This document shows, piece by piece, positions 2,543-24,512 of a stretch of 64,000 nt of DNA; within the stretch, counting starts at the first letter, position 1; every line of letters starts with the position of its first letter. Where the stretch lies: the NCBI RefSeq assembly GCF_001010285.1, contig NZ_CP011104.1, positions 1,178,001 to 1,242,000 of the forward strand, in the 5' to 3' direction. The DNA comes from Photorhabdus thracensis (lineage in GTDB: Bacteria > Pseudomonadota > Gammaproteobacteria > Enterobacterales > Enterobacteriaceae). The translations under genes were made by a program, and so were the position numbers. The notes below the pieces were generated by a model that saw nothing but the letters and a program-made list of their open reading frames with translations, was not told where the DNA came from and ran no database searches.

Positions 2543-2556
2543 GATATTTCCTAAAT

Positions 2557-5511: not shown

Positions 5512-8500
5512 TTAGCTTACCTGCGCTTTGCTCTGCTCAAGATGGTTTACCAATGGCATCACATTATCTGATTTAATACAGTCAAAATGGTCACCATTCA
5601 GTGAAAGATAATTCACGTTCCCAAGACAATATTGCTGCCAGAATTCTTTCATGTCCTGCTGGAGCGCAGGCAGCAAATAAGTATCACTATTTTGGCAGGC
5701 AAACGTCAGATCACCGGCAAAATAGTCTGGCTGATAACGGCAAACACCCCGAATGCTGTGACGGAAAACAGAACACATCCGGATCAACTCTTTCTCAGCA
5801 ATCTCATTTTTACGAATAGCGCTGACTAATTGCTGTAAACGCTGATCTTCCGGGATATCTACCACCGCCATATAAGCATCGGCAAAGGCATCCATTCCGC
5901 GAGCACGGGCATATTCAGCGACGGAATGACGATCAATTACCTCTGGTTTTTCCGCCAGCAAAGCTTCATAGACGGTTTCCAGTTGTTCCTGAGGCAACGG
6001 CCACGGACACTCCACTGACAATCCCCAGATAATCGCCATATCTATCATCAATGGATCATCAATCAGGTAAGGGATCTGATAACTGCTGGCAATCGTGACT
6101 GAAGCAACAGGTGTCTGATTTTCCATCGCCTGACGCGCCATTTCAAAAGCCAATAACCCCCCCATGCAGTAACCAAATAAATGGCAATTGCCAGGCAAAG
6201 ATTGAATATCACGCAGATAATGCCGTGCCAGTTGAGAGATTAACTGCTCAGATGGAATTTGCAGGAAAGCTTCTGTATCTACCACACTCAAGGCATAAAC
6301 CGGCCCGGAAAGTTTTTCAGTCAAAGGCAGGCAAGGCAATACCGTACCACTGCCTTCATGCAGAATAACGACCGGATCACCATGACCTTCCTTCAACAAC
6401 GTCAGACAAGCATGGTTATCTGATGCTCTCTTATCCTGCACTGACTGTGTACGCAAAAATGCCGCCAATGCACGAACGGTTGGCTGCTGTAGCACCTGAC
6501 GCAAACTGCCTTCCCACGGAACGTTATTTTCCCCAAGCTCCTGACGAATCCGGCTCACCCACTGCGTTATTAATAATGAGTCACCGCCGCTGGCGAAGAA
6601 ATCATCATCAAGACCAATATTATTATGCCCAAGCAGTTCCCGGCACAACGTCAGTAAGGTCTGTTCCAGTTCGTCACTGCTGTTGCTTTCTGCTACTGGT
6701 TCATTCCTGCTATGCTCCGGTAAATCCGGCATACCTTTACGATCAACTTTGCCATTAGCTGTCACCGGCAGGCGATCAAGTACGGTAAGGCGAGCAGGTA
6801 CCATATAAGCAGGCAGTTGTTGTTTTAATGACGCCAACAATTCTGTGCTGCTGCATGGTCTACGGTTGAGATTAAATTGCGCCAAAATAAAACTCTGCCC
6901 CAGCTGATAAAGCGCATCTTCTGCGGGCGGATAAGCCCATAACGTCTCCGCCCCCACATCGTTCATGGCATTAAGCCAGTTTTTCTGCGGCATAAACGGC
7001 GAATCCAGCTCCAGCCGTTCATCGGCAAAATCACTCAGACCATGCTTAAATTCCATAGAAGTCATTAACTGGTAATTATCCCGGGTCGCTTCAATAACCA
7101 ACAGCCATCCATCCGGTGCCAGTAACTGGCGCAGATGCTCTAATCCCTGACGGGCAATAACCGCATTGTGCAGAACATTAGAAGAGACAATCATGTCAAA
7201 CTGACCACAATCCAACCCTTGTTCTACCGGTGTACGATTAAAATCAAACAACCGGTAACGAACAAAATCAAACTGCTGATAACGTAATCTGGCCTCATTC
7301 AGGAAGAATGGCGAAACATCGGTAAAGGTATATTCGACTTTCCAGTCTGCCAGTTTCGGGATCAACACGTTACTGGTGCCGCCCACACCAGCCCCAATTT
7401 CCAATACCCGCAGGCAACGCCCTTCTTCATAGTTAATCTGAGCCGCTTTTTGTTCAGCCGCAGCCAGCAACAAGCGATTCATCATTTTACTGATCAGATT
7501 GTTTTGGTAAGTTTTGGTCGCCACATCCAGCTTGCCATCAGGGAACAACAAATTCAGCGGATCTTCTTTGCCCTGCAACAATTCTGGCAGACACTGGCTA
7601 CTGCGTTCCAGATAGGTAAGCAAGCCCTGGTCATCATCCAATGCTGACATCAAGTCATAACATTGTTGCCAACACTGCTTGATTTCATACTCTGAAACAT
7701 CAGCATTGAGCTGGTAATACTCACCTTGTTGCTGAATTAGCTGATGCTGAACCAACGCTCTCAGCCACCGGCGTGTTAATTGCCGGTTTTCTGCCGCAAT
7801 ACTGCCGTTTTCCATCACAGAGTCGAGGGTAGCGGGCTTTCCTGCCTGTAAAGCACCGACATCTACCAACGCACCCGCCATATGCAACAGAGCCACACGA
7901 TCAAGGAACCAAACCAGCTTTTCTACCTTTTGCTTATCTATCGTTGCTTCAATATCGCTGGCAACTGAGCGTACTTTTTGTAATGCAATCTCATAGCGCT
8001 GATACAGCTTTTCTGCCCGTTCCAAAGAATTTTCTGTCGCCGCTTCCACAAAAGCGTGTAATTCCTGATTATGTTTATCCCCTTTTACGACAACCGCAGC
8101 CTGAGCCACACTATTATGTCGTTCCAACACGGCTTCTATCTCACCCGTTTCCACCCGATAACCACGAATTTTTACCTGATTATCACAGCGTCCAAGAAAC
8201 TCAATAACGCCATTGATGGTATAACGCCCTCGGTCTCCTGTGCGATACCAGCGTTGTCCCTGGCTGTCAGTGATAAAGTGATGGCGGGTTTTTTCTTCAT
8301 CCTGCCAATAGCCCTGAGCAACACCACGGCCACCAATCCAAAGTTCTCCCGCAACCCAATCAGGACAAGGTTCCCCACGGAGATCCAAAATACGGAACTG
8401 CTGATTAGCCAATGGCGTGCCATAAGGAATGCTGTTGTGATAGGTTTTTGCGGGTTCTATCGGCCAGATATTTGACCAAATAGCCGCTTCAGTCGCCCCA

Positions 8501-10971
8501 CCCAGGCTGAACTGATAAGCATCTGGCGCATGCTGATAAATAGCGGTTGGCAAATTAAGCGGGATCCAGTCACCAGACATCATCACACAACGCAAGCTAC
8601 CAATGGATTCCTTCCCACCTTCAGACAGATAGCGGGTCAGCATCGTCATTTGCGCCGGGACAGAGTTCCACAACGTAACCTGATGCTTATCAATTAGCCG
8701 TGCCCATTGTGCAGGGTTTTGTAAATCCTGTTCCTGCGGCAATATCAGCGCGCCACCTGCGCTAAGTACACCAAAAATATCGTAGACAGAAAGGTCAAAA
8801 CTCAGCCTCGCCAGTGCCAACATGCGGTCAGTCGATGTGACATTCATACGGCGATTGATATCGCTGATGGTATTCAGCGCCGCATCATGGCTTATCATCA
8901 CGCCTTTCGGCTGCCCGGTACTCCCAGAGGTATAAATAATATAAGCCAGATTATGCGGATCATTTTGCTTCACTGACACAGCAGAAAGGGTTGCCAGTTC
9001 TGACACATTCCCGATGCTGGCAGCATTAAATCCCTGTTCCCGTAACTGTTGAGCTAAAACTTCATTATCGGTCAATACTGCACTAACCTGTGCATCAGTC
9101 AGAATTTGCAATATCCGTGGCAACGGCTGTGAAATATCAAGTGGCAGATAAGCACCATCAGCGATTAGAATCGCCAAGGCCGCAATAACCTGCTCCGCAC
9201 TTTTTTCCATCAATACCGCGCTATGTCCACCTTGAGGCAAAAAGGCAGCCAATTTTGTGGCGCGTGTTACCATCTGTTGATAGGTCATCGGCCCACACGC
9301 ATCAATCAATGCCAATGTATCAGGCGTTTTACCGGCCTGTTCCAAGATACCCTGATGTAATAGCGCCGATTTAATCACTGCCTCAGTTGCATTAACCTGT
9401 TGCCGTGTTTTTTGCTGGTACTCCGGCAGATTAATGACGAGTGCCTGACCCCACACATCAACCTGTTCCAATACCTGATATATCGCGCCAGTAAAGCAAC
9501 TGAACATATCGCGGATCAGATCTACCGGGAATACTCCCTCCATGATATCCCAGTTGATCAATAACCCTCCGTTACGAGCCATCACTTGGCAATCAATCCA
9601 TACTTGTGGGGTCTGACTGATACCATAGCCAATCTCAATATCCATCGGTAATTGGCTGATAATGTCCTGCGCCTGCTCTTTACCCTCGCCAACTAATGCA
9701 CTGGTAAATACTATCGGCATTCTCGCAGCTTCTGCTCCCCTCTGTCGCGCCAGCTCACGCATCACCTCAATACCGCTGAATGCGTTATGTTCCAAATCCT
9801 GCCACAGTTGCGTCTGTAGATTTTTCACCCGTTCCAGCAATGAGAGGGGCTGACTGATATCCGCGTGCAATAGGCTAACGCTGGTAAAATCCCCAACCAT
9901 CCGGTGAATATCTTCATGAAGATCACGGCGGTTCATTACTGTCAGATTGAGGCAAAAAGATTTCGTTTCTGACCAGCGAACAAGTGTTTCACTAAATAGC
10001 GCCAAAAGCAGTGCAGAAGGAGAGACGCCCTGCAAACGACAATGTTGTTGCAATTGCTCCCACTGCTTAGTAGTGAGTTGCAAATCGTAACGACTGAAAC
10101 GAGGAACAACGCCACTTTGTACTGGAAGGTGAGGTAATTGTGGGCTGGCCGGCAACTCAGGCAGACGTTTCAACCAATATTCACGCGCGCTGGCATAACT
10201 GCGCTGATGGTGGTGGCGGCGCTCAAACTCCATCACATCACGGAAACTGGCCTGCAATGGAGCAAGTTCTGTCTGAGGCTCTTGATAACCTTTTAACAGT
10301 TCTGCCAGCAAAATTTGTACACTGAGAAAATCCGCAATCAGCAAATCAATACTGAAATGAAGGCAGGATTTCCCTGCCGCCTGACTGACTTTCAGATCAA
10401 ATAGAGGCCAACAATCTGTCTGATAAACCCGGTGAGACATGGTTTGCCGAAGTTCTTCCTGCGAAGAGGAATCGCAATCAATAGTAAAACGATCCACTTC
10501 CGGCAAAATCTGTTGCTGCCCCTGAACAGTGAATACTGCCCGCAACATATCGTGGCGTTGGATCAGCTGATTCCATACCTGTTCAAGACGTTTAACGTCC
10601 CAATGTTCAGTCAGAATCTCAAAATAGCCGTGACAACCCACACCACCATAATCGAACATTGCATGACGCCCGACAAAATAAGCTGACTGCACATCACTTA
10701 AAGCAAAAGGCAAATGCTTCTGCGCCGGGTTTACCACAAAATTCTGTGGTTCCTGCCACTCCTGTATTAACGCAATAATTTGTGGTTTCAAATTCTTCAA
10801 CTGAGCAATAACGTGATGACTCATCACTCCCTCAGGTGCGCGAAACTTCAACGCATCACCTTCCAGCCAGAATTTAGCCTGTTGTTGTTCAAGTTGCAGT
10901 AAAAGCTGAACAGCTTGTTGTGAAGCTGATAGCTGTACTGTTTTTTTCTGTATAGTTTCCTGGCTATTCAT
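5512..10971 (-). CDS. NRPS, terminal module: docking-Cy-A(MT)-PCP-TE
   Basis: An 1819-residue one-module NRPS. Order of domains: TubC-type docking segment (~15-65); heterocyclisation domain (~90-520) with DLLIADFLS matching the Cy motif DxxxxDxxS; adenylation domain (SGSTG near 684) whose FDLSVYDIF and LGGATEAAIWS motifs fit cysteine-activating domains; a methyltransferase inserted in the A domain with an intact SAM loop EIGAGVGGTS (~1190); the end of the A domain (NGKVDRK ~1404); PCP with GGDSL (~1464); thioesterase (~1520-1815). The layout resembles PchF of pyochelin but with a C-methyltransferase as for 2-methylthiazoline formation. The TE elbow reads GYCMGG, with Cys (~1602) where Ser is usual. 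Its ATG overlaps the stop of the upstream synthetase (ATGA). It probably adds, cyclises and methylates the last cysteine and releases the product. Confidence 0.9.
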   Translation of the reverse strand: MNSQETIQKKTVQLSASQQAVQLLLQLEQQQAKFWLEGDALKFRAPEGVMSHHVIAQLKNLKPQIIALIQEWQEPQNFVVNPAQKHLPFALSDVQSAYFVGRHAMFDYGGVGCHGYFEILTEHWDVKRLEQVWNQLIQRHDMLRAVFTVQGQQQILPEVDRFTIDCDSSSQEELRQTMSHRVYQTDCWPLFDLKVSQAAGKSCLHFSIDLLIADFLSVQILLAELLKGYQEPQTELAPLQASFRDVMEFERRHHHQRSYASAREYWLKRLPELPASPQLPHLPVQSGVVPRFSRYDLQLTTKQWEQLQQHCRLQGVSPSALLLALFSETLVRWSETKSFCLNLTVMNRRDLHEDIHRMVGDFTSVSLLHADISQPLSLLERVKNLQTQLWQDLEHNAFSGIEVMRELARQRGAEAARMPIVFTSALVGEGKEQAQDIISQLPMDIEIGYGISQTPQVWIDCQVMARNGGLLINWDIMEGVFPVDLIRDMFSCFTGAIYQVLEQVDVWGQALVINLPEYQQKTRQQVNATEAVIKSALLHQGILEQAGKTPDTLALIDACGPMTYQQMVTRATKLAAFLPQGGHSAVLMEKSAEQVIAALAILIADGAYLPLDISQPLPRILQILTDAQVSAVLTDNEVLAQQLREQGFNAASIGNVSELATLSAVSVKQNDPHNLAYIIYTSGSTGQPKGVMISHDAALNTISDINRRMNVTSTDRMLALARLSFDLSVYDIFGVLSAGGALILPQEQDLQNPAQWARLIDKHQVTLWNSVPAQMTMLTRYLSEGGKESIGSLRCVMMSGDWIPLNLPTAIYQHAPDAYQFSLGGATEAAIWSNIWPIEPAKTYHNSIPYGTPLANQQFRILDLRGEPCPDWVAGELWIGGRGVAQGYWQDEEKTRHHFITDSQGQRWYRTGDRGRYTINGVIEFLGRCDNQVKIRGYRVETGEIEAVLERHNSVAQAAVVVKGDKHNQELHAFVEAATENSLERAEKLYQRYEIALQKVRSVASDIEATIDKQKVEKLVWFLDRVALLHMAGALVDVGALQAGKPATLDSVMENGSIAAENRQLTRRWLRALVQHQLIQQQGEYYQLNADVSEYEIKQCWQQCYDLMSALDDDQGLLTYLERSSQCLPELLQGKEDPLNLLFPDGKLDVATKTYQNNLISKMMNRLLLAAAEQKAAQINYEEGRCLRVLEIGAGVGGTSNVLIPKLADWKVEYTFTDVSPFFLNEARLRYQQFDFVRYRLFDFNRTPVEQGLDCGQFDMIVSSNVLHNAVIARQGLEHLRQLLAPDGWLLVIEATRDNYQLMTSMEFKHGLSDFADERLELDSPFMPQKNWLNAMNDVGAETLWAYPPAEDALYQLGQSFILAQFNLNRRPCSSTELLASLKQQLPAYMVPARLTVLDRLPVTANGKVDRKGMPDLPEHSRNEPVAESNSSDELEQTLLTLCRELLGHNNIGLDDDFFASGGDSLLITQWVSRIRQELGENNVPWEGSLRQVLQQPTVRALAAFLRTQSVQDKRASDNHACLTLLKEGHGDPVVILHEGSGTVLPCLPLTEKLSGPVYALSVVDTEAFLQIPSEQLISQLARHYLRDIQSLPGNCHLFGYCMGGLLAFEMARQAMENQTPVASVTIASSYQIPYLIDDPLMIDMAIIWGLSVECPWPLPQEQLETVYEALLAEKPEVIDRHSVAEYARARGMDAFADAYMAVVDIPEDQRLQQLVSAIRKNEIAEKELIRMCSVFRHSIRGVCRYQPDYFAGDLTFACQNSDTYLLPALQQDMKEFWQQYCLGNVNYLSLNGDHFDCIKSDNVMPLVNHLEQSKAQVS

Positions 10972-13900
10972 AAAGAACCTTCCTCAAAAATCATTTCCGC
11001 TTCCTCTGCGGGAGTGGATTGTAGTTGTTGTGCCATACGTGCAATGGTTTGCAGGTTAAAAACCTGCCAGAGTGGTAAATCAATGTTATGACGCCGCCTC
11101 AGTTCAGAAGTGAAACGGGTTGCAATAAAGGAGTCGCCGCCAAGGGCAAAGAAATTGTCATGAACGCTGAGTTGCGTCAGATTGAGCAATGGCAACAGCA
11201 CATCTGCCAGTTGTTTTTCCAATGGGCTTTCCGGCAACGTGTCCATAACCTGACTGACAACATTCCGTGGTTGTTGCTCAATCATTTTACGATCCAGCTT
11301 ACCGTTGTCTGTCAACGGCCAGCAAGACAGCCAACCAAACTCAACCGGAACCGCATATTCTGGTAATTGTGCCGACAGTTGTTGCCGCAACAGCGACCAA
11401 TCCGGCTCTTGCGATGCCAAGACGCAAGCTGAGAGGGACGGACGCTTGCCGCGTTGATTAACAAATACCAACGCATCTTCAATACCGTCACAATTTTTCA
11501 GAGCCTGTACGATCTCACCCAGCTCAATACGGTAGCCGGAAATTTTAACCTGCTGATCACGCCGTCCCAGGAATTCCAGTACGCCTGTTGGGTGATAGCG
11601 CCCCATATCACCGGTACGATACCAACGCTCGCCTTGCCAGGAAATAAACTGATTGGCAGTGCGCTCATCATCACCGAAGTAACCCAGCGCCACACCATGA
11701 CCACCAATCCACAGTTCACCAGCAACCCAATCAGGACAATCCTCTGTTAGTTCATTGACTACCCGGAAACGCTGATTCGGCAGCGGTAATCCATAAGGAA
11801 TAGAATTCCATTCAGGATCAAGCTCGTCCACTAACCAGTAATTCGACCAAATGGCCGCTTCGGTCGCCCCTCCCATAGAAACCAATCGCACCTGTGGTAC
11901 CCAACGCTTCAAACGCTCAGGCAATGCAAGGTTAATCCAGTCACCGGAGAGCATGACCAAACGCAAACTGGTAAGGGCATCGGTCTGTTCACCGTTTTCA
12001 CTCAGTAACAGCGCCATTTCCAGTAGGGCTGGCACACTGTTCCATAGCGTTATCTGGTGCTGTTTTATCAAAGTCAACCAATGTGCAGCATCCTTAGAAT
12101 AGGTTTCAGGTACCGTGACCAAAGTCCCGCCCGCTGACAGCACACCAAAAATATCCCACACAGAAAGATCGAAATGCAGTGCAGACAGCGCCAGAACTTT
12201 GTCCTGTTTACCAACACAATGCTGCCGATTGATTGCTTCAATAGTATTGACCGCAGCCCCATGACTTATCGCTACGCCTTTTGGTACGCCAGTGCTGCCA
12301 GAAGTGAAAATAATGTAAGCCAAATCCTGAGATTGTGAATGCCAGGGTTGAATCGCCGTTGTTGTCAGCGGTGACTGGTTAATATCAACAATTGCGACAG
12401 ATTCCGTCCATTGCAAGTGGCTATCCGCTACAACACGAATCAACCCCGCCTGCTGGGCAACCTGTTCCCGGCGCAGCACAGGCCACTCGACAGAGATTGG
12501 AACATAAGCCGCACCCAACCACTGAACAGCCAGTACTGCGACGACTTGTTGATAACCCCTTGGTAACGCAACACCAACACAATCACCCGCACAAACGCCT
12601 TGTTCAACCAAAACCTGAGCCAATCGTTGCACATGTTGTTCTAACTGTTGATAACTGACCTGCTGCTCACCATCAATAATCGCTGTTCGATCCGCAAACT
12701 GTGTCATCGCCTGCCCAACACGCTGATGCATTGGTGCAAAACTCAATTCCTGATGCGTATCATTAACCCGTTGACGACATTGCTGCTGTTGTCTCGGCAG
12801 CGCTACATTCACCTGAGTACGCCAGTCCGGGGTCACACTTAACTGCGTCAGCAAATCACAATATGCGCTGAACATCGTATCAATCATACCTTGCGGGAAC
12901 AGACCATCAACCACATCCCAGTTGAAACGTAATTCTCCATCCTGCTCATATACCTGATGATCGATCCAAACCTGAGGAGTCTGAGAAATTCCCCAGATAG
13001 CCGGCGGGAACGGTTGTGCACTCTCTTGATAAGGCATGACTGCTGCCCCTAACGCACTGGTAAACACGACGGGCATAGCCAAATCGGTAACTTGCCGTTG
13101 TTTATTCAATTCACGGATAACCCATACAGCCGAAACATCAGTATGAGCCAGATCTTGCCAAAGCTGTTGCTGTAACCGCTGTGCTCTGTTAAGCCAGTTT
13201 TCATCGGCTAAATGGTGACATTCCAGTAACAGAAGCGAAGTGAAATCCCCCAGAATATGGTTGATATCAGGATGTAATGGCTGACGATCAAACAACGTCA
13301 CATTGATACTCAATGAAGCCGATTCTGACCATTTCGCCAGCACCTGTGCATAACAAGTCAGCAACAAACAAGAAGGCGTCACTTGATAATGCCGGGCTTT
13401 TTCTGTCAGAGTTTGCCACTGCTGCCGTGGCAAAACAGATTGCCAACGTTTAAACCGGGGAGTCCCCAATGACTGCGGATCACAAATCAGTGGCAGCTTT
13501 GGCGCTTCAGGTAATTCTGCCAGCCGCTCTTGCCAGTAATTTGCCGATTTACGGCTCTTCTCTTCATCAGAAATCACCGTGGTGAGATAATCACGGAAAC
13601 CAATCCCAACGGATGGCAATACCCCTTCCGGTTGCTGATAAAGCTGCTCAAGTTCGGTGAAGAAAATACGCATACTCAAGCCGTCAAGGATCAAGTTATC
13701 CAACCCGATATACAGGCGATTACGCCCATTATCTGACTGAATCAGCGTCACATGGAACAGCGGCCATTGTGTCGGATCAAGTACCCGGTGAGATAAACTT
13801 TCCCGCAATTTACTGGTTTCTTCTGACCATTGCTGATCAGAACAGTGGATCACGTCTAGTGCAGGTTTTGGCTGCTGTGGCAACACCCGTTGCATTCCTT

Positions 13901-16900
13901 GCTCGTCAAAGACAATTCTCAATGCATCATGACGGGCAATCAATGCGGATAAAGCCTGTTCTAACCGCATTGCATCAAAAGGCTGACCTTCGTATTCGTT
14001 ATAATAATGAGTGGCAACACCACCGAGACGGAAACCAGCCTGACGCCCCATCAGATAGGCACGTTGTACATCTGTAGGCGGGAATGGCTGATAACGTTCA
14101 CTTTCCTGATGTTGCAGCTGCATCACTTTTGTTTTTGGCAGTTCAGCAAAAGTCATCAATCGAGCAAAATCACGCAACACCGGGGAGGAGAACACCTGAG
14201 CCAGTGTGACATCTACAGCCCCTGCTGATTCCAACGCCACAACAATACGGGTAGCATGTAAACTATCACCACCAAGCAGGAAGAAATTACTGTCAGCCAT
14301 TGGCTCTGTGCCCAATACCTGTTGCCAGATCTTAGCCACCAAATATTCGGCTTTTCCTGACAATTCGACGCCTTGTGCAGATTGCGGAATTTCCTGCTCT
14401 GCCCCGTCTACAGTTAATTGCTCAAGTGCTTTGCGATCTATTTTTCCATTAGCGCTCAATGGTAATTTATCTAAAACATGCAAATACTGCGGCAACATAT
14501 AAGCTGGAAGATAATCTGTCAGATGCTGCGTCAGTTCGTGGCGATTAACTATAACGTTGCCACTACAGTTTTTGCACATCAATAGCATGGAGTTTTCACC
14601 CATTACCGTCACAGACTGCACGGGTAAATCACCTTGCAACAACTGCTGTTGCCAACGTTTCTTATCCAGTAGCGGATCTTGCTGGCCTTGTCGCAGATCA
14701 GTAAAACCGTTTTCATCTTGCAGCAGTAACACCGTTAATTGTGCCAGTGGGCTGAGATATTGGCTTTCAAACACCAATACGCCACTGCCAGAAGATGCCA
14801 ATACTTGCAGATCAGAGATTCCCTGACGGATATCGGCATAACGATGCAGTGCATTATTACTGATGACCAAATCGGCACTATAATGTGCCGCTTCTTGCAC
14901 TGTACAAACCTGGCTCTGATGCGGATAACCTGACAGACGATATTTCGCCAGTTCACGCAGTGAACCGGCCTGTTCAACCAAGCAATATTCAATCTCTAAA
15001 TCTGATAATAGACCGAGTAACTTGCCTGCAAACAGACCACTACGGCCATTCAGCTCTGCAACCCTGACAGGCCGCTGCAATATTGAGGATAACTGATGGA
15101 TTTGATCCGCAATAAGGGTAATGACCGCTTCAGTTTCCGGTGAACCAACAACCAGAACTTCCGGTGACAATACAGGATCGTCGATAAGCATCAGTGGGTT
15201 CTGTTTCCCCTGAATAACCTGAGCAATCCAGTCACAACCCCCATTAAGCGCCTGATAAATTCCGTCCATTCGTGATGCCAGAACCGGCTTGCTATCTGGT
15301 TGCCACCCTTGATTCAACTGCCAGCCTTTTTCACTTTCAGATAACCATCCCTGATGCGTCAACCACTTCAACCACTGAATAAATAGTGGTTGATAACGAG
15401 GTATCACCCCTGCCTGTTGATATAGTATTTCTGCACTCTGTGGTTGAGTGAGTGTCAATTGCAAAGAATCAATCAATATCTTTTGCAACAGCGACAAAGC
15501 GATATGCTGTTCATCATCCTGACGGCTTTCCGCCTGAACAAATGATGGCATTTCAGGCAATATATCATCAGCTAATGTTGAAGAATCACCCGTGATAACC
15601 TGACCTTCAACGAATAATCTCAGATGTTTTTGTGGTTCAGATAAACACAATGCAACGGCTTTACTGATTGCAGGGTGACGTAAAGCCACAGTCTCAATTT
15701 CACCCAGTTCAATCCTGTAACCATTCAGTTTAATCTGGCTATCTTTGCGGCCAAGAAACTCAAGGCATCCACCCTGCCAGAAGCGCCCATAATCTCCCGT
15801 CCGGTAATAACGCTGCCCTTGATGCAGAACAAACTGAGTATCTGTTTTTTCCCGGTCGCCATAATAGCCCAGCGCTACGCCTTCCCCGCCAATCCACAAC
15901 TCTCCGGCGACCCAATCAGGGCAATCCCGCTGTTGTGAATCCATGACTCGGTAATGCTGATTAGAGAGCGGATAACCGTAAGGAATTGAGCGCCATTCTG
16001 ACGGGATAACATCGACATCAATCGCGTTAGACCAAATTGCTGCTTCCGTTGCTCCCCCCATTGCCGTTAATTGAGCCTGGCTTCCGACTTCACGCAAACG
16101 GGGAAGCAGATCCAGGCCAACCCAGTCACCGGATAACAACACCTGTTGCAATGACTCAGGCAAACCACGGGGATCACTTTCAGCCGCCACCAGCAACATA
16201 TCAAACAGCGCCGGGACACTGTTCCAGACTGTTACCTGTTCCTGATGCAGCTGTTCCAGCCACTGTTTTGCTTCCCGCTCATGGCCTACCTCAGGCATAA
16301 CCAAGGAACCTCCTGACGCAAGAGGGCCAAAAATGTCATATACCGACAAATCAAAATTCAGTGCCGACAGGGCATATACCCGTGTTTTTTTCCGCTGACC
16401 ATAACGGCGATTAATATCATCAATTGTATTAGCGGCAGCCTGATGAGATACCACCACACCTTTAGGTGTACCGGTAGAACCAGAAGTGAAGATGATATAA
16501 GCAGAAAGTTCCGGTTCCCCATAAACCACCTGTGATAATGGCAGTCGCGAGTCACCTGTCTGCTCAATATTCAGAACCGCATCAAACCAACCACTAATAG
16601 GCTCCTGATATTCGTTGTTTGTAATAATCAACGAAATATCCGCCTGACTGATGATGGTCTGTAAACGGGCTGATTGCTGCGCGACATCCAACGGAACATA
16701 TACCGCCCCAACACTCAAGCAAGCCAAAACAGCAACAACTTGCTCTGTACCTTTTGGCAACAGTAATGCCAGATTATCTCCGGCTTTTACTTTTTGCTCT
16801 TTCAGCCTGTAAGCCAGTTCCAGTACACCCTGTTCAAGTTCGCCATAACTTAGTCGCTGATGAGGCGTGATAACTGCTGGTGAATCTGCCCACAATGCGG

Positions 16901-19900
16901 CAATCTCATAAAAACGACGATGCAGCAAACGTGGCGTAAAAAGCATACCATCACGATCTTTAGGCTCTGTACGCTGTTCAATAATTTCCGGCGTGACATA
17001 ATGCGAAACCGGCTTTGAGAGGAGTTGAGGGTCATCTGTAATTGCGCTGATCAGATGAGTCATAAAACTAAACATTTGATCAAGCATGCCTTGAGGGAAT
17101 AACCCATCGACACAATCCCAGCTGACTAATAACTCGCCTTGATGTTCCATCACCTGGCAGTCAATCCAGACTTGTGGCGTCTGGGATACCAGATAATTCA
17201 GCTCTCCCAGCTCATTACCGTTAAGCAAATCACGGCCAAGATTACTGGTGAATACCACCGGCATAAGAACTTGATGCCCGCACATCTGCGACCAGTCCCG
17301 CATAACCTGTATCGCGCTGTAATCCACATGATCCAGATCTGACATAAACTGGCGATTAAGAGCCCGGCTGTTCTCTAAGATGCTGTTCCCCGCCTGCGTA
17401 TGACAAGCCAGCAACAGTAATGTTGTGAAATCCGCAACTAAATCAGGCAGTTGAGGATGCTCTCCGCGACGGTTGAAAATCGTCAGATTCAGTGTGAAAT
17501 CCGGCGATTCAGCCCAACCACGCAATGTTTCAGCAAAGCAATTCGCCAGCAACATTGAAGGAGTTATACCATTGCTGCGGGCAAGTTCCTTCAATGATAA
17601 CCAACGCTGTTGTTCCAGACTCCACTGACGATGATGGAAATCAGGCTTATCAATATGTTCCGGTTTAACTGCCAGTGGTAACTGAGGCGCAAAAGGGAAC
17701 TGCTCAACCAATCTTTTTTGCCAGTATTGACGATTGTCGATTAACTGACTATCAGCGGCCTGTTCACACAGATATTGCGGGAAGCTGTAATTTAATTGAG
17801 GAAGAAGCACACCCGGCATCAAAATAAGCTGACTGAGCTCTCTCAACAAAATCTGAAGGCTCATAGCATCCGCCATCACCATATCAATATTAATATGTAA
17901 GCGACTGCTATTTACGGTATGGCTTACCATCACGCCAAATCCGCTATCAATTGTCAGATCTGCAACTTTAGTTTCCAGACGTTTCCTGAGCGTGAATCTT
18001 TTCTCTTCCAATAAACTCGGTGAAAGTTGTTGCCAGTCATAAGATTCAATGGATACCGGCTGGTAAGCCGTAATTTCCCCTTTACCATCACCGGTAATAC
18101 GCATCCGCAACATATCATGGCGCTGATGTAATTGATTCACTGCCCATTCAATATCACTGTTCTTCAGTAGCGGACAATCCAGTTCCAGATAGACCTGACA
18201 AGCGATTCCGCCCAACGTCTGCTCTTTTTGCCGCCCCGTCCAGTAGGCTTGCTGAACCGAAGTGAGTTCAAAAGGCTCGCCATTCCATTTTATAACCGGC
18301 TGTTCTGACTCTTTTGAGACATTTTCAGGTTGAGCAGCAGAAAACCAACACTGTTGCCATGCGGCTAATGTTGGCTGTTCGAATAAGGAAGATAATGACA
18401 GAATGACATGCTGTTTTTTGCATTCATCCACCAGATCCAACATCTGCAATGAATCAATGCCCAAATTAAGCAAATTATCATCCATTGCTAATGCGTTAGG
18501 CTCAGTTCCCAGCACGTCCGCTACCCAATTGATAACGAAATCAAAGCCAGTATGACCTGAACAAGACTCGGATTGCTCCTGTGTTTCCTGTTCAACTAAA
18601 CGCAGTTCTTCCGGCCAGTAACTCTCACGATTAAATGGATAGAGAGGAAGTTGTGCTAGTGCAAATCGGCTAACCGGCATGTTTCCAGCATATTTAACCC
18701 AGTTATAGGATTGCCCTTGTAACCAATCACAAGGATCACTCCCCTTCTCTAACATTTTTATACGATCAACTTGAATTGGCTCAACATGGCGTAAAGACGC
18801 AATCAGCGTGGCTAAATTCTGATAGCTGATTAGCACCCGCCAGCCAAAATGATGATGACGTTTCTTCAACCAACCGTTGAGCAGTTCGCCAGCTTGTTCC
18901 TGATGATTTTCTAGCAAATCCGCCAGTTGATTAGCCATCTGTTGCAATGCTGATGCACTACAGGCTGAAAGCGGCAATAAACCATTTTCAACAAATGGCA
19001 CAGGAATAGTGGGGTCAGATAAGTTTGCTTTACTCAGCACTAAACCCGCCATTGTGCCGGTAAAACTGAATGAGCTGATTGCAACTCGTTCTATTTGATG
19101 AGATTCAGTCTGTTTACTGTAGCGATAACGTGGCATTAACGCTGACAATTTAGCGCTGAACGAGGCCAGCGTTGGATGACCAAACAGTTGTTGCTGTTGT
19201 ATCTGCGCCACAGCCCGAACCACAGAGGCCACACCCGCGGCGGCTTCCAAATGACCAATCTGTGCTTTACAGGCGGCCAACGGCAACGGCTGGTGTCGTT
19301 TGCCATAAACACTGTCAATAGCCTGTAATTCAATCGGATCACCTAAGGCTGTACCCGTGCCATGCATCTCCAGCAAATCAATATCATCAGGCGCAATATC
19401 AGCCTGTTCCAACAACCGCTTAAGCATTGCTGACTGGGCTTGTGGATTCGGAGCAGTCAAGCTGCTACTTTCACCATCCTGAGCGACACAACTGGATTCA
19501 ATCACGGCCAACACCGGATCACCATCATCCAGAGCCTGTTGATAAGGTTTTAGTAATAGTAATGCCGCACCTTCACCTCTGACATAGCCATCCGCGTCTT
19601 CACTCAGCGTAGCGCATCGGCCCTTAGGCGATAACATGCCGGCGTTTATCAATGTCTGTTCAATCTGCGGTGACAGTAAAATGTTAACGCCACCGGCAAC
19701 AGCAGCGTGGCATTGCCCTTGCTGTAAGCTGCGAATCGCCGTATCCAATGCCACCAGAGAAGAAGAGCAAGCCGTATCAATAGTGAGTGCAGGACCGGTT
19801 GTTCCATAGAACTTCGCTAATCGGCCAGAACTTGCACTTGTATTAATCCCAGTAGCCAAATAACTTTTGGCATATTCAGGATTATTCAGTTTCAGTAATT

Positions 19901-22256
19901 GCTGACCAAACTCACTGCCGCTCTGACCGATAAAGAAACCCGTGTCCGATTGTTTCAGTTGCTCCGGCAACCATCCTGCCTGTTCGAACAGATGCCAACT
20001 TAATTCAAGCAATAGCCTCTGCTGAGGATCAAGTAATACGGCTTCCCGGCCTGAAATGTTGAAGAAACGGGCATCAAATTGATCAATACCTTCCAGAGCG
20101 CCAATAGGAAGCGCAAACTGACGAAGCGCTGAATTGCCGGGCCTGACAGCTAACTCGCTTTTAGCCAACCATTGCCCATATTGTTGCCATTTGTTACTTG
20201 TTTGCCCCGGTAAGCGACAACTTATCGCAATAATTGCAATCTGTTCATTTCTGGTTGATTCAGATTTTGTGGCAGATACCGTGATTTTTTCATCTGATAA
20301 TTTATCAATATATTTAGCCAACTGAGTAATAGTTGGGTAAGCAAATAAATCAGCTGGGGTTAGATTACAACACCAGATTTTATTTATTTGCTGGCAATAG
20401 CGAACTGCTAACAGGCTGGTTAATCCCAATTCAGCAAAACCACAGGCAGGATCTGGGTTATCTAAATGAAGCAAACTGCAAAGAAGCTGATAAAGCCAAC
20501 CAGGTAAGGAAGAAGCTTCTTTTTTGTCAATATCACACGGCAAAGCAAAGAGCACTTTTAGTTGGCTATTCTCAAAATCAGCCAACATTTGTTTGCGCCG
20601 GATTTTTCCACTGGAAGTTTTCTTTAATGCTCCATGAGGCAATAACACCACATTCGCCAGTGAAAGCTGAAAATCCGATGCGACTCTGGCTGCAATCTGC
20701 TGGGCAATGACCTGTAATTTAGTCCCTTCAAGGTGGCGATAAACTTCGGCAAAGACAAACAACTCACCGCTTTCTACCTGCTGGCAAGCACAAGCTCCAC
20801 CAATTTTTACGTCTTCACATCCCATCTCGATACTGGCTTCAATATCATTTGGCATGTAATTTTCGCCGGCGACAATAATAAGATCTTTATGTCGACCACA
20901 GATATAAAGCTCCCCCTGCCAGATAAAGGCTAAATCACCCGTCCGCAAATAATGGCTTTTATCTATAGACTGATTAAGACAAGCCATAAAAGTCTGTTGG
21001 CTAAGTTCGGGTTTCTGCCAATAACCAGGCGCTTTGGAATCACCATCAACCCAAATTTCACCCACCCGCCCTTCCGGTAATATTTCACCGGTTTCAGGAT
21101 CAACAATCCGCAGTTTCCATCCACTGACAACCTGCCCTGAACTCACCAGTTCACGGCCATTTTCCGCAGGAACAGCGTAACCGGAAGCAAGTCTATCCGC
21201 ATCAAAACACTGGCTAATGAATGGCATCCCGGCGGGTTTGCGGCTGATGACAAGTGTTGCTTCCGCCATACCATAAGCGGGCACAAAGCTCAAAGGGTTA
21301 AAACCTGATACGGAAAAGTGGCGGGCAAACCGCGGCATAGTTTCAGCCCGGATAGGTTCTGCGGCATTCAATACCATTTTAAGCGAAGAGAGATCGAATT
21401 CTGTCGCCTGCTCTTGAGTGATACTATCAATGCACAGTTGCCAAGCGAAATCTGGTGCGGCTGTGGAATTTGCTGAATAATCAGTAATCAGCTTTAGCCA
21501 GCGGGCAGGATCAGCCGTGAAATGGCTGGGAGAAATAAAGTTGCAACAACCGCCAGATAATAGTGGCGTCAATAGTCCGCAAAACATGCCCATATCATGA
21601 TAAAACGGTATCCAATTGGCCGTAATAATTCGTGGCTGGCAATCACGATGTAATTCAAGCAATATCTCATGTTGGGCCTGCATATTTGCATCAAAATTGC
21701 AGACAGCTTTCGGCTTACCGGTAGAACCAGAAGAATATTGAAGAAATACCGGGCCATCATTCGGACACATTAGCTCTTTATATTCATTAGCTGATGGTAT
21801 TTCTAATATATCATTCTCCGTAAGAATATCATCTAGTACAATAACCTGACGACCTATATGCCATTGCCGCTTCTCAATTTCATCAACCGAGCTTTTTAAA
21901 GTAATAATATATTCTGGCTGACAATCTGCAAAGATATAATTAATTGTATCCGCTACTCGTCCAAGACGATGACTGGCAGGTAAGTTAACCGGAACAGCCG
22001 TAACACCACGGATGATACAAGCTAAAAACCCCAAAATAAACTGAGCATTACCCGGTATCAGAATAATCGCTTTAGCATTTTCGCGGTAACTTATATGGCG
22101 TGCAATATAGCTACTGAGACAGATAATATCTTTATAGTTAAATTCTTGTGTATTATCCTTAAGGCAATATCTTAAAACCGTTTCGTTAGGTTGTTTATTT
22201 GCATATAAATAAAGAGTATCTCTTACCCATCCTGATAAATTATTCTTATCATTCAT
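10968..22256 (-). CDS. hybrid synthetase: FAAL-ACP-KS-ACP-Cy-A(E)-PCP-Cy-A-PCP
   Basis: A 3762-residue protein. Visible domains: fatty-acyl-AMP ligase (1-~570; SSGSTGKPKAV, NAAEPI, YGMAEATL); ACP (Ser ~614, GLTSLL); ketosynthase (~670-1070; DTACSSS with Cys ~829, HGTGT ~966, GHLE ~1002); a short linker ending LPLYPFNRESYW (~1205); ACP (GIDSL ~1268); Cy (DMVMADAMS ~1459); cysteine-type A domain (SGSTG ~1925) holding a degenerate methyltransferase-like insert (~2215-2560); PCP (~2664); Cy (DNLILDGLS ~2855); cysteine-type A domain (~3319); PCP (~3709). No acyltransferase, ketoreductase or dehydratase is present. The FAAL-ACP-KS start recalls MicC of micacocidin, but without AT and KR. Expected product on the final PCP: an acyl or beta-ketoacyl chain joined to two thiazolines. 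AAGGA lies 8 bases before the ATG. A dyad and a terminator precede it. Confidence 0.9.
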   Translation of the reverse strand: MNDKNNLSGWVRDTLYLYANKQPNETVLRYCLKDNTQEFNYKDIICLSSYIARHISYRENAKAIILIPGNAQFILGFLACIIRGVTAVPVNLPASHRLGRVADTINYIFADCQPEYIITLKSSVDEIEKRQWHIGRQVIVLDDILTENDILEIPSANEYKELMCPNDGPVFLQYSSGSTGKPKAVCNFDANMQAQHEILLELHRDCQPRIITANWIPFYHDMGMFCGLLTPLLSGGCCNFISPSHFTADPARWLKLITDYSANSTAAPDFAWQLCIDSITQEQATEFDLSSLKMVLNAAEPIRAETMPRFARHFSVSGFNPLSFVPAYGMAEATLVISRKPAGMPFISQCFDADRLASGYAVPAENGRELVSSGQVVSGWKLRIVDPETGEILPEGRVGEIWVDGDSKAPGYWQKPELSQQTFMACLNQSIDKSHYLRTGDLAFIWQGELYICGRHKDLIIVAGENYMPNDIEASIEMGCEDVKIGGACACQQVESGELFVFAEVYRHLEGTKLQVIAQQIAARVASDFQLSLANVVLLPHGALKKTSSGKIRRKQMLADFENSQLKVLFALPCDIDKKEASSLPGWLYQLLCSLLHLDNPDPACGFAELGLTSLLAVRYCQQINKIWCCNLTPADLFAYPTITQLAKYIDKLSDEKITVSATKSESTRNEQIAIIAISCRLPGQTSNKWQQYGQWLAKSELAVRPGNSALRQFALPIGALEGIDQFDARFFNISGREAVLLDPQQRLLLELSWHLFEQAGWLPEQLKQSDTGFFIGQSGSEFGQQLLKLNNPEYAKSYLATGINTSASSGRLAKFYGTTGPALTIDTACSSSLVALDTAIRSLQQGQCHAAVAGGVNILLSPQIEQTLINAGMLSPKGRCATLSEDADGYVRGEGAALLLLKPYQQALDDGDPVLAVIESSCVAQDGESSSLTAPNPQAQSAMLKRLLEQADIAPDDIDLLEMHGTGTALGDPIELQAIDSVYGKRHQPLPLAACKAQIGHLEAAAGVASVVRAVAQIQQQQLFGHPTLASFSAKLSALMPRYRYSKQTESHQIERVAISSFSFTGTMAGLVLSKANLSDPTIPVPFVENGLLPLSACSASALQQMANQLADLLENHQEQAGELLNGWLKKRHHHFGWRVLISYQNLATLIASLRHVEPIQVDRIKMLEKGSDPCDWLQGQSYNWVKYAGNMPVSRFALAQLPLYPFNRESYWPEELRLVEQETQEQSESCSGHTGFDFVINWVADVLGTEPNALAMDDNLLNLGIDSLQMLDLVDECKKQHVILSLSSLFEQPTLAAWQQCWFSAAQPENVSKESEQPVIKWNGEPFELTSVQQAYWTGRQKEQTLGGIACQVYLELDCPLLKNSDIEWAVNQLHQRHDMLRMRITGDGKGEITAYQPVSIESYDWQQLSPSLLEEKRFTLRKRLETKVADLTIDSGFGVMVSHTVNSSRLHINIDMVMADAMSLQILLRELSQLILMPGVLLPQLNYSFPQYLCEQAADSQLIDNRQYWQKRLVEQFPFAPQLPLAVKPEHIDKPDFHHRQWSLEQQRWLSLKELARSNGITPSMLLANCFAETLRGWAESPDFTLNLTIFNRRGEHPQLPDLVADFTTLLLLACHTQAGNSILENSRALNRQFMSDLDHVDYSAIQVMRDWSQMCGHQVLMPVVFTSNLGRDLLNGNELGELNYLVSQTPQVWIDCQVMEHQGELLVSWDCVDGLFPQGMLDQMFSFMTHLISAITDDPQLLSKPVSHYVTPEIIEQRTEPKDRDGMLFTPRLLHRRFYEIAALWADSPAVITPHQRLSYGELEQGVLELAYRLKEQKVKAGDNLALLLPKGTEQVVAVLACLSVGAVYVPLDVAQQSARLQTIISQADISLIITNNEYQEPISGWFDAVLNIEQTGDSRLPLSQVVYGEPELSAYIIFTSGSTGTPKGVVVSHQAAANTIDDINRRYGQRKKTRVYALSALNFDLSVYDIFGPLASGGSLVMPEVGHEREAKQWLEQLHQEQVTVWNSVPALFDMLLVAAESDPRGLPESLQQVLLSGDWVGLDLLPRLREVGSQAQLTAMGGATEAAIWSNAIDVDVIPSEWRSIPYGYPLSNQHYRVMDSQQRDCPDWVAGELWIGGEGVALGYYGDREKTDTQFVLHQGQRYYRTGDYGRFWQGGCLEFLGRKDSQIKLNGYRIELGEIETVALRHPAISKAVALCLSEPQKHLRLFVEGQVITGDSSTLADDILPEMPSFVQAESRQDDEQHIALSLLQKILIDSLQLTLTQPQSAEILYQQAGVIPRYQPLFIQWLKWLTHQGWLSESEKGWQLNQGWQPDSKPVLASRMDGIYQALNGGCDWIAQVIQGKQNPLMLIDDPVLSPEVLVVGSPETEAVITLIADQIHQLSSILQRPVRVAELNGRSGLFAGKLLGLLSDLEIEYCLVEQAGSLRELAKYRLSGYPHQSQVCTVQEAAHYSADLVISNNALHRYADIRQGISDLQVLASSGSGVLVFESQYLSPLAQLTVLLLQDENGFTDLRQGQQDPLLDKKRWQQQLLQGDLPVQSVTVMGENSMLLMCKNCSGNVIVNRHELTQHLTDYLPAYMLPQYLHVLDKLPLSANGKIDRKALEQLTVDGAEQEIPQSAQGVELSGKAEYLVAKIWQQVLGTEPMADSNFFLLGGDSLHATRIVVALESAGAVDVTLAQVFSSPVLRDFARLMTFAELPKTKVMQLQHQESERYQPFPPTDVQRAYLMGRQAGFRLGGVATHYYNEYEGQPFDAMRLEQALSALIARHDALRIVFDEQGMQRVLPQQPKPALDVIHCSDQQWSEETSKLRESLSHRVLDPTQWPLFHVTLIQSDNGRNRLYIGLDNLILDGLSMRIFFTELEQLYQQPEGVLPSVGIGFRDYLTTVISDEEKSRKSANYWQERLAELPEAPKLPLICDPQSLGTPRFKRWQSVLPRQQWQTLTEKARHYQVTPSCLLLTCYAQVLAKWSESASLSINVTLFDRQPLHPDINHILGDFTSLLLLECHHLADENWLNRAQRLQQQLWQDLAHTDVSAVWVIRELNKQRQVTDLAMPVVFTSALGAAVMPYQESAQPFPPAIWGISQTPQVWIDHQVYEQDGELRFNWDVVDGLFPQGMIDTMFSAYCDLLTQLSVTPDWRTQVNVALPRQQQQCRQRVNDTHQELSFAPMHQRVGQAMTQFADRTAIIDGEQQVSYQQLEQHVQRLAQVLVEQGVCAGDCVGVALPRGYQQVVAVLAVQWLGAAYVPISVEWPVLRREQVAQQAGLIRVVADSHLQWTESVAIVDINQSPLTTTAIQPWHSQSQDLAYIIFTSGSTGVPKGVAISHGAAVNTIEAINRQHCVGKQDKVLALSALHFDLSVWDIFGVLSAGGTLVTVPETYSKDAAHWLTLIKQHQITLWNSVPALLEMALLLSENGEQTDALTSLRLVMLSGDWINLALPERLKRWVPQVRLVSMGGATEAAIWSNYWLVDELDPEWNSIPYGLPLPNQRFRVVNELTEDCPDWVAGELWIGGHGVALGYFGDDERTANQFISWQGERWYRTGDMGRYHPTGVLEFLGRRDQQVKISGYRIELGEIVQALKNCDGIEDALVFVNQRGKRPSLSACVLASQEPDWSLLRQQLSAQLPEYAVPVEFGWLSCWPLTDNGKLDRKMIEQQPRNVVSQVMDTLPESPLEKQLADVLLPLLNLTQLSVHDNFFALGGDSFIATRFTSELRRRHNIDLPLWQVFNLQTIARMAQQLQSTPAEEAEMIFEEGSL

Positions 22257-22430: not shown

Positions 22431-24512
22431 TCAGAACTTAATATTGACTGTCGCACCATAAGTTAAAGGCTCTCCTGCACGACCATACCAACCGTTCTCT
22501 CCGGTCATTGGGTCACGCATTGGGAATGCACGAGTAACATAAGTCTCATTTAACAAATTCTTCGCCCAGAATGTAATATCGTAATCTGGTGTTTCATATC
22601 CAGCCCGAAGATTCAACAAGCCATAATTAGATTGCTTCTGAGAATTAGCATTATCAAAATAAACTTTACCAGCAATATTATAATCCGCACGGATAAAATA
22701 TCCGTTCAGGAAACTATAATCTACACCAACGCCATAGGTGTAGTTTGGTGTATTTGCCGGGCGTTTATCTTTATAATCGGTAACACCTACAACTTTTCCA
22801 CTTTTGTCATAAATACTGTCTTTAAACTCAGTAAAATGAGCATCATTGAAACCTGCATTAGCAGATAATGTCAGCCCCTTAATCACTCTCCAGGAGATTT
22901 CCGATTCAAGCCCTCTACTGATTGATTTCCCTGCATTCTGGGTAACGGATTCTGGATAAAATTGCTTTTCAACCTGCTGATCCGTAAAGTCAATCCAAAA
23001 TAATGCGGTATTCCAGCGCACGGTCTTATCCAACCATTCTGATTTCAGACCAATCTCATAGTTGGTTGTGTATTCAGCATCAAAACGGCGCTGCTCCTTA
23101 GGCGCCAAACTGTTAAACCCTCCACTTTTATAACCACGGGCAATACTGGCATATAACATAGCATTATCCGTAGCATAATAATTGACCCCAGCTTTTGGTA
23201 ACCAGGCATCAAAAGAGAGGTTATCAGTCAGATTTTCTCTGGTTATTCCTGAGAAATTTTCTGTTTTTCCGAATTTCAGATTCTTTTTCTCATAGTCATA
23301 ACGCAGCCCAGCAACCAGCTCTACATTATCCGTCAGATAATAACTGGTATTACCAAACAGAGCATAATTATTGGTCTTAACGTTGGTATTCTTAACCTGA
23401 TAACCAAACTGTAACATCCTGTAATCAATATCTAATTTATCATCCTGATTAAAGTAATACATACCAACCAGCCAGTTAAATGGCCCGGTATTTTTGGAGT
23501 TAAGACGTAATTCCTGCGAGAAATAATTTTGTTTGCGGTCAATGAATAATTTTGAATGTGATTTACGAGTAAAATCGAGATCCTGATAATCTTTTTTATC
23601 TTCTGAAGTATATGCACTAATTGAAGTCAGATCCATACGATCCCATTGATAGACCGCTTTAATAGATCCTTTATAAATATTAGCGTCTGATTTACCTGCA
23701 TAATCAGAATCTATCGATTTTGTCCCTCTCTTGATTTTATCGAGCGGTGCAAATGAGGCGTTTCCGTTTCTGCGGTTTTGTGCATCAAATGTAGTAATAA
23801 TATCCCACGGCCCATCTGATGGCTGCCAGCGGATCTTAAATCTGCCGTTAAAATCATTAACATCATTTATATTCTTTTTATTATCATAATCTCGTTTAAA
23901 ATAGCCATCGCTATTCAAATAACGTAATGCTGTACGGTAAGACCAATCGCCATATTCATCAATACCACCACCTAAAATAGCAGTAGTCTGCAAACGATTA
24001 TAATTACCATATGAGAAACCAAGTTTCCGTTCCGTTACCGGATCGGGATCTTTGGTAATGATATTAATAACCCCCGCTTCAGTATTTCGGCCATATAATG
24101 TTGCCTGTGGGCCACGTAATACTTCAACGCGTTCAATATCCAGTAATTCGGTATCAAATGAACTGCTATACACACCATCAGTAAAGAAACCGACCGCTTG
24201 TTCTCCTTCCATTCCAGGCGTCACACCCCGCAATGAAATAAACCCAGCATCAGATGGGTTACCTGCTTTTATCATATATAAATTGGGAACTTCTGAAACA
24301 ACTTCATAAAAGTTTTCAATCCCTTTCCGCTCAATATCAAAGTCAGATAATGCCGTCATACTTATTGCTGTTTTTTGCTGATCCGCAGAAACTTTCTCCG
24401 CAGTTACAACAACAGTATCCAACGAATCAGTTTTGCTATTTTTATTTGCCAAACTCTGATGAGAATAAAAAACAGATAACACAGCAATAGTGGTTACGCT
24501 ATGCTTTAACAT
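22431..24512 (-). CDS. TonB-dependent outer-membrane receptor for the metallophore
   Basis: A 693-residue receptor. It has a signal peptide (~1-22, ending SLANK), a TonB-box-like DTVVVTA (~32-38), a plug domain with RVEVLRGPQATLYGRN and GVINIITKDP, and a beta-barrel ending in an aromatic-rich strand and terminal Phe (NIKF). The plug motifs match FyuA/pesticin-receptor-type and related siderophore receptors. It is the first gene of the metallophore locus in transcription order. A Fur-like site lies about 120 bases upstream and a hairpin follows it. Uptake of the iron- or other metal-loaded product of the neighbouring synthetases is the natural role; the exact ligand is inferred from position. 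Confidence 0.88.
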   Translation of the reverse strand: MLKHSVTTIAVLSVFYSHQSLANKNSKTDSLDTVVVTAEKVSADQQKTAISMTALSDFDIERKGIENFYEVVSEVPNLYMIKAGNPSDAGFISLRGVTPGMEGEQAVGFFTDGVYSSSFDTELLDIERVEVLRGPQATLYGRNTEAGVINIITKDPDPVTERKLGFSYGNYNRLQTTAILGGGIDEYGDWSYRTALRYLNSDGYFKRDYDNKKNINDVNDFNGRFKIRWQPSDGPWDIITTFDAQNRRNGNASFAPLDKIKRGTKSIDSDYAGKSDANIYKGSIKAVYQWDRMDLTSISAYTSEDKKDYQDLDFTRKSHSKLFIDRKQNYFSQELRLNSKNTGPFNWLVGMYYFNQDDKLDIDYRMLQFGYQVKNTNVKTNNYALFGNTSYYLTDNVELVAGLRYDYEKKNLKFGKTENFSGITRENLTDNLSFDAWLPKAGVNYYATDNAMLYASIARGYKSGGFNSLAPKEQRRFDAEYTTNYEIGLKSEWLDKTVRWNTALFWIDFTDQQVEKQFYPESVTQNAGKSISRGLESEISWRVIKGLTLSANAGFNDAHFTEFKDSIYDKSGKVVGVTDYKDKRPANTPNYTYGVGVDYSFLNGYFIRADYNIAGKVYFDNANSQKQSNYGLLNLRAGYETPDYDITFWAKNLLNETYVTRAFPMRDPMTGENGWYGRAGEPLTYGATVNIKF

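Follow-up and report, generated by a model that had tools for sequence, protein, structure and literature searches.

An apparent acyltransferase-less lipid-initiation module ahead of a thiazoline-type assembly line in Photorhabdus thracensis

In the current study, we analyzed a 3762-residue synthetase encoded in a 64,000-nucleotide stretch of Photorhabdus thracensis DNA (the window, to whose numbering all coordinates refer unless another locus is named). Residues 1-1342 are best explained as an acyltransferase (AT)-less lipid-initiation module ahead of a thiazoline line of the pyochelin/yersiniabactin type, and the likely product of the assembly line is the usual ring-headed iron scavenger in a fatty-chain form. 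As for the starting step, the reading that we favor, at somewhat short of an even chance, is one extension with malonate from FabD and no reduction, which would give a β-ketoacyl-thiazoline whose enol mimics the phenolate of the salicyl-thiazoline siderophores. The novelty lies in how two parts, each already known, are combined: a lipid start without an AT and a line for thiazoline siderophores. Should the head prove to be a β-keto enol, it would represent a different route by which siderophores of this class build their head chelate. The combination was not found in open-access papers, and an AT-less FAAL thiazoline line is not described in the accessible portions of PMC9177418, PMC9396620, PMC11837247, and PMC5563371, nor in those of PMC11751314, PMC3039948, PMC10291242, PMC12997852, and PMC6604713. 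Literature phrase searches for a β-ketoacyl-thiazoline likewise found nothing.

The synthetase and its gene cluster

Translation of positions 10968-22256 (minus strand, as for all features below) yielded a single open frame of 3762 amino acids, with the domain order FAAL-ACP1-KS-linker-ACP2-Cy-A(MT-like insert)-PCP-Cy-A-PCP. Pfam recognized AMP-binding, both KS halves, and four PP-binding stretches in this protein, and found neither Acyl_transf_1 nor a ketoreductase (KR) at an E value of ≤0.01. An earlier sequence-only reading of the same DNA had proposed a FAAL-ACP-KS-ACP start lacking both AT and KR, and this was borne out by Pfam and by the linker search described below; the region, which that reading placed at 18230-22256, is in exact frame from 18231 to 22256. 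The FAAL (residues 1-570, 20547-22256) was assigned by PF00501, PF23024, and PDB matches, the best of which include the fatty-acid--AMP ligases FadD23, FadD28, and FadD32. It is followed by ACP1 (20307-20534; serine S614; Pfam, alignment, and PDB matches), the KS (19017-20267; Pfam, motif positions, and column comparison), a KS-AT linker domain without an AT (residues 1093-1155, 18792-18980), a post-AT-type peptide, LPLYPFNRESYW (residues 1203-1214, 18615-18650; translation and motif positions), and ACP2 (18342-18554; serine S1269; alignment and PDB matches).

Downstream of this start, Cy1 (16977-18284; Pfam and motif scan) has DMVMAD at the DxxxxD motif, which the Cy domains carry, and A1 (14427-16919; translation and motif scan) contains a degenerate methyltransferase (MT)-like insert that scored 17.4 bits against PF08242, below the cut-off of 30. 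PCP1, Cy2, A2, and PCP2 occupy 11022-14354 (Pfam and motif scan). The A-domain pockets have the frame D-L-Y/W-N ... I-W, which we take to be a cysteine-type code; the middle residues (DLYNLSMIW in A1) were read by eye, a script pattern having miscaught most rows, so that the cysteine-type assignment is partly by eye. The same D-L-Y-N ... I-W frame is found at two loci of the micacocidin (MicC) type, L123 and L124. MT-like inserts in A domains of the thiazoline class are described as epimerizing in the available parts of PMC12997852 and PMC6604713.

A TubC docking-Cy-A-MT-PCP-TE synthetase of 1819 amino acids (5512-10971; translation, Pfam, and motif scan) has an intact-looking MT, and its order is the same as the Cy-A-MT-PCP-TE end of the pyochelin line. 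Beyond it lie a NAD(P)-binding, saccharopine-dehydrogenase-like protein (4438-5511; Pfam and other profile matches), a thiazolinyl imide reductase of the Irp3/PchG type (3314-4441; TIGR01761, 436.6 bits against a cut-off of 188.8), a stand-alone thioesterase (2557-3330; PF00975), and an MFS transporter (1271-2581; Pfam and NCBIfam, RhtX/FptX being the nearest NCBIfam model, below its cut-off). Upstream of the 3762-residue synthetase is a TonB-dependent receptor (22431-24512; PF00593 and PF07715 above cut-off, TIGR01783 below). Two ABC-transporter genes (ABC_membrane plus ABC_tran, seen at 13767-17283 of locus L038) complete the cluster past the left edge, the first of them reaching into positions 1-1283, and an amidase comes next. 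Taken together, the TonB receptor and the reductase suggest a siderophore role for the cluster, and such a role would call for a head donor. The three Cy-A units support a tris-thiazol(id)ine line, in agreement with the tris-thiazoline line proposed earlier. No salicylate starter genes were found among the seven cluster proteins and three profiled L038 proteins, and the best scores of a Fur-box scan equaled those of shuffles.

Two further features of the cluster deserve mention. The saccharopine-dehydrogenase-like reductase (4438-5511) is present in addition to the Irp3-type enzyme, with a like-size frame in relatives; its target could be a second imine or the β-keto group. In the window and in one other genome (G009), the cluster (1271-25147) adjoins frames read as recD/recB (L031 to L036), and in G005 and G007 it adjoins other genes; the cluster seems to have moved between chromosomal sites.

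The KS, its linker, and the two carriers

The catalytic residues of the KS are C830 (in DTACSSS), H965 (in HGTGT), and H1002 (in GHLE), which together with K997 are invariant in five aligned copies (our own, three of its genus, and that of G784, from another genus); in the second copy from that other genus, G818, the Cys and the two His motifs are likewise present. The sequence-only reading had called the KS motifs intact, and this holds for the motifs and catalytic residues but not for the rest of the domain: when the 76 columns with a conservation of 90% or more across 165 other KSs are compared, all four genus copies depart at 16 of them, the highest number among 169 KSs (median, 2). The changed columns include the GFGGTN loop, which gates the pocket in FabF-type enzymes and here reads SFTGTM; a paper search on this loop gave nothing. 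The MicC-like KSs L123 and L066 read GFAGTI at this position.

The KS was among the most conserved parts of the protein. In three same-genus pairs (nonindependent, since the window's gene is in every pair), dN/dS was 0.076, 0.065, and 0.056 for the KS, versus 0.120, 0.104, and 0.105 for the whole protein. This was the lowest value of any large domain in two of the three pairs, with Cy2 lower by 0.002 in the third; some short carrier domains fell below the KS. Between G784 and G818, identity was 92.3% for the KS, compared with 79.8% for the FAAL, 81.9% for Cy1, 83.7% for A1, and 87.2% for Cy2 (the 56-residue PCP2 was 92.9% identical). As judged by these comparisons, the KS has kept its catalytic residues and is under strong constraint.

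KS trees were built from 169 (with SH-aLRT support only), 50, and 45 sequences. In the two larger ones, the window's KS lies inside a large, mostly AT-bearing group; the AT and AT-less labels of the 169-KS tree derive from an HMM of the four own-genome ATs, which can miss ATs. It falls outside the main AT-less clade of the 169-KS tree (14 of the 39 AT-less KSs; no named trans-AT reference) and likewise outside the counterpart of that clade in the 50-KS tree. The other 25 AT-less KSs, the four genus copies included, also lie outside that clade, so that tree position alone cannot separate this KS from a trans-AT module. Its sister was unstable (L093 at 97/85 in the 50-KS tree; L133 at 90/87 in the 45-KS tree, whose deepest splits are weak), on a stem of 1.65 to 1.78. 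The phylogeny that had been suggested as a check gave a divided answer: each of the three best trees placed the KS apart from the MicC-like clade, but an AU test on the 50 KSs did not reject a joint clade (P = 0.453). As to its placement, we claim only that in two trees its companions are mostly AT-bearing KSs. The nearest KS of the 45-KS tree belongs to a FAAL-ACP-KS-AT-KR-ACP protein, which fits a loss of AT and KR.

Residues 1070-1230 matched the PF22621 KS-AT linker (28.7 bits, cut-off 27, positions 2 to 64 of 64), with four further matches below cut-off, among them the PF22336 RhiE-like linker (13.0 bits). LPLSACS is at residue 1094 and YPFNRESYW at 1206, and these positions, with PF22621, agree with the earlier description of a linker that begins like a KS-AT linker and ends like a post-AT linker, peptides as quoted. 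The profile check proposed for this segment gave no AT or KR fragment in Pfam at a limit of E ≤ 10 (program filters discard most matches above about 0.1), and a remnant of either domain in the linker was rejected within those filters. In an AlphaFold model of the KS region (35 sequences in the alignment; mean pLDDT, 77.7), the KS and linker domain were folded with fair to high confidence and other parts were not, pLDDT being below 50 across most of model residues 504-656, ACP2 included. The top 10 Foldseek matches to this model were cis-AT KS-AT structures (GfsA, CurL, and mycocerosic acid synthase, etc.), and the first trans-AT KS, from bacillaene, was at rank 11.

The two carriers differ in kind. 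The best PDB matches of ACP1 were polyketide ACPs (mupirocin and CurA), and those of ACP2 were the aryl carriers of HMWP2 (29.6 bits) and PchE (26.4 bits) and then EntB (21.3 bits). An ACP2 profile gave the MicC-like ACP2s 11 to 18 bits and other polyketide ACPs of the set up to 23.9, a one-sided comparison because the set holds no known aryl carrier. By its PDB matches, ACP2 resembles an aryl carrier, and a bare excision of AT and KR from a MicC-like line is insufficient by itself as an explanation. This qualifies the earlier suggestion that an AT and a KR had been cut out: neither is found, but the carrier is left unexplained by plain excision from a MicC-like protein. The simplest history would be that a FAAL-ACP-KS unit minus AT and KR was fused to an aryl-carrier-Cy line of the HMWP2/PchE kind.

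Copies in relatives and the supply of malonate

Four of 12 genomes of the genus, our own included, carry the gene, with 91 to 96% identity over residues 1-1342 and, in the three other copies, an identical frame length of 11289 bp. A scan of 392 genomes of the family (E ≤ 1e-120) gave nine matches, of which four are the AT-less line (our own, G009, G005, and G784) and five are FAAL-KS proteins with 35 to 37% identity. The line is also present in two members (G784 and G818) of the 30 genomes from the genus of G784, in copies that are about 60% identical to ours. An assembly error or recent deletion was rejected, given the same frame length in four genomes and AT-less copies in two more. Cluster frames of matching size occur in the same order in G005, G007, G784, and G818, followed in all four by frames that match the ABC-transporter genes in size. 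Besides the window's genome, a single distant genome was matched in the scan of the class (369 genomes, E ≤ 1e-25), and the scan of the phylum (398 genomes, E ≤ 1e-95) gave the same picture. A contig profile scan gave no match above 42% identity among the best 80 of 580 relatives, a selection that may leave out near genomes and so does not establish absence of the line elsewhere.

The G784 and G818 copies have lost the KS-AT linker domain and retained the post-AT peptide. In the pairwise alignment with G784, 116 of the 136 residues at 1085-1220 are deleted, and in both copies the KS is joined via roughly 10 to 20 residues to the peptide LYSFNRQSYWPE and ACP2; AT, KR, and linker models were all absent (Pfam, E ≤ 0.1). 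In these two relatives, at least, the sequences show that the linker domain can be lost while the KS stays. The linker had been described as if an AT and a KR had been cut out, a picture that is modified by these relatives, in which the linker domain is missing altogether.

The window's genome has four AT matches, none of them at the cluster. We found no dedicated malonyl transacylase gene in the cluster, and the stand-alone AT that might have lain past the left edge is not there, its place being taken by the two ABC-transporter genes and the amidase. The only short stand-alone AT of this genome is FabD (TIGR00128, 420.9 bits against a cut-off of 260.9), located between KAS III and SDR genes. 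Each of the six carriers of the line has an AT frame of this size (315 to 318 amino acids), and no other stand-alone frame of AT size is shared by the six, which bears out the naming of FabD as a candidate trans AT. A further AT frame of 416 to 420 amino acids is present in three of the six (G009, G784, and G818) and absent from the window's genome.

Readings of the initiation step

If the line starts with a single FabD-dependent extension, as we favor, the FAAL would put a fatty acid on ACP1, housekeeping FabD would load malonate onto ACP2 in trans, and the KS would perform one decarboxylative condensation. Without a KR, the β-ketoacyl group would pass to Cy1 and be condensed there with cysteine. 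From chemical reasoning, the resulting 2-(2-oxoalkyl)-thiazoline could enolize to an O-C=C-C=N unit and so form the six-membered chelate that pyochelin and yersiniabactin form through their 2-hydroxyphenyl-thiazoline, with the aliphatic enol replacing the phenol as head donor; two further cysteines would complete a tris-thiazol(id)ine acid. The lack of AT and KR here and in two relatives favors this reading, as do the FabD-sized frame shared by the six carriers, the low dN/dS of the KS, and retention of the KS in G784 and G818 in spite of the lost linker domain. Against it, there is no transacylase in the cluster, unlike in the iturin system, FabD would have to act on an aryl-carrier-like ACP2, and the changed GFGGTN loop and 16 of 76 columns may alter condensation. 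The additional AT frame of three carriers and the Fur-box result also count against it. The wider proposition, that there are siderophores in which an aliphatic β-keto enol stands in for the phenolate, made by a remodelled KS with FabD malonate on an aryl-carrier-type ACP and with no need of AT, KR, or linker domain, is put forward tentatively. The KS offers a small system in which to learn what a module without an AT requires.

The sequence-only reading compared the start with that of MicC, but the ItuA and MycA synthetases of iturin and mycosubtilin are nearer precedents. As in the present protein, their order is acyl ligase-ACP-KS-ACP with no AT listed in the portions of PMC11751314 and PMC3039948 that were available. 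According to the same portions, ItuA receives malonate on its second ACP from the transacylase ItuD (an MCT), and its KS produces a β-ketoacyl thioester (PMC11751314), and FenF loads malonyl onto ACP2 of MycA (PMC3039948). Malonate in trans and a β-ketoacyl product are therefore published precedents for the start that we infer. The systems differ in that an aminotransferase domain follows ACP2 in ItuA/MycA whereas Cy follows it here, in that their transacylase gene is in the operon whereas none is in this cluster, and in the aryl-carrier-like nature of ACP2.

The main rival is that the KS only transfers the acyl chain (from ACP1 to Cys830 to ACP2, without malonate), which would make this an acyl-thiazoline line. 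We consider this unlikely, although it would account for the absence of an AT from the cluster, for an ACP2 that resembles carriers taking ready-made aryl groups, for the dispensable linker domain of G784 and G818, and for the remodelled active-site loop. Against it, H965, H1002, and K997 are kept in five copies (and the Cys and both His in G818), and no other large domain is as well conserved as the KS in two of the three same-genus pairs or in the G784-G818 comparison. Moreover, FAAL-ACP could supply Cy directly, so that a KS that performed no chemistry ought not to be needed. A further possibility is an inert KS, the vestige of a deleted module that FAAL-ACP1 bypasses in supplying Cy1. The loss of AT and KR, and of the linker domain in two relatives, would suit such decay, but the low dN/dS and the catalytic residues kept across two genera make it very improbable.

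An iterative KS, of the kind proposed for MicC but working without a KR, could instead perform three trans-malonate extensions and form an alkylresorcylyl (2,4-dihydroxy-6-alkylbenzoyl) head, so that the phenolate would be kept. The MicC-like KSs L123 and L066, which also lack the GFGGTN asparagine, the nearest KS of the 45-KS tree, and the AU test all leave room for this. We nonetheless regard it as rather improbable, because no aromatizing domain was found, none of the three best trees puts the KS in the MicC-like clade (although its position is unstable, with a stem of about 1.7), and MicC-like ACP2s score low against the ACP2 profile. A usual trans-AT polyketide module, with a dedicated AT encoded elsewhere and docking on the linker, seems to us scarcely probable. 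A linker and post-AT peptide without an AT, both present here, are the typical look of such modules. However, the linker scores above cut-off for PF22621 but not for PF22336, the best structural matches are cis-AT KS-AT proteins, the only AT common to the six carriers is FabD-sized, with no dedicated stand-alone AT, and the supposed docking domain is missing from two copies.

With the MicC-type lines (micacocidin, massiliachelin, and agrochelin; L123 and L124), the present one shares a FAAL-ACP-KS start before Cy-A-MT-like-PCP and a thiazolinyl reductase. It differs in having neither the AT nor the KR that follow their KS, and no MicG-like PKS in the cluster. The MicC-type KS is proposed, in the accessible parts of PMC10291242 and PMC6604713, to make 6-pentylsalicylate in three rounds; with AT and KR not found, the product here lies outside that prediction rule, as had been argued. 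With pyochelin, yersiniabactin, and piscibactin-photoxenobactin, the common ground is Cy-A-PCP chemistry, an MT-like insert in A1, the Irp3/PchG-type reductase, and the TonB receptor, to which the likeness of ACP2 to the HMWP2 and PchE aryl carriers may be added. In place of the salicylate starter and ligase of the pyochelin/yersiniabactin kind there is FAAL-ACP-KS, and a further difference is that no PKS extension separates rings 2 and 3. A protein from a Campylobacteraceae MAG (L053) shares the FAAL-KS-linker-carrier order without an AT, but aminotransferase and C domains follow, and PF22621 and PF22336 both match its linker above their cut-offs.

Several related loci showed features of their own. 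The MicG-like second PKSs of L123 (32207-38938) and L124 (13029-19343) gave no Acyl_transf_1 match at E ≤ 0.001, although KS, MT, and KR were found. In L124, on Undibacterium plasmid pUKW01, the MicC-like frame (235-3672 and 3627-12977) breaks near the KS C terminus, with the end motif of the KS lying in a different frame. A micacocidin-type FAAL-KS cluster in G528 (L137/L138) is apparently broken into many short frames. L037 (3095-10990) and L139 (3894-11735) encode a compact FAAL-ACP-KS-AT-ACP-aminotransferase-C protein of about 2600 amino acids, which frames of similar size in G485 and G652 match (domains were checked in L037 and L139 only). Finally, the window's own genome has a second PKS-NRPS line (L040/L041) at about 4.96 to 4.99 Mb of the same contig, with a 4189-amino-acid frame whose KS groups with the MicG-like KSs and a separate KS-linker protein of 620 amino acids nearby.
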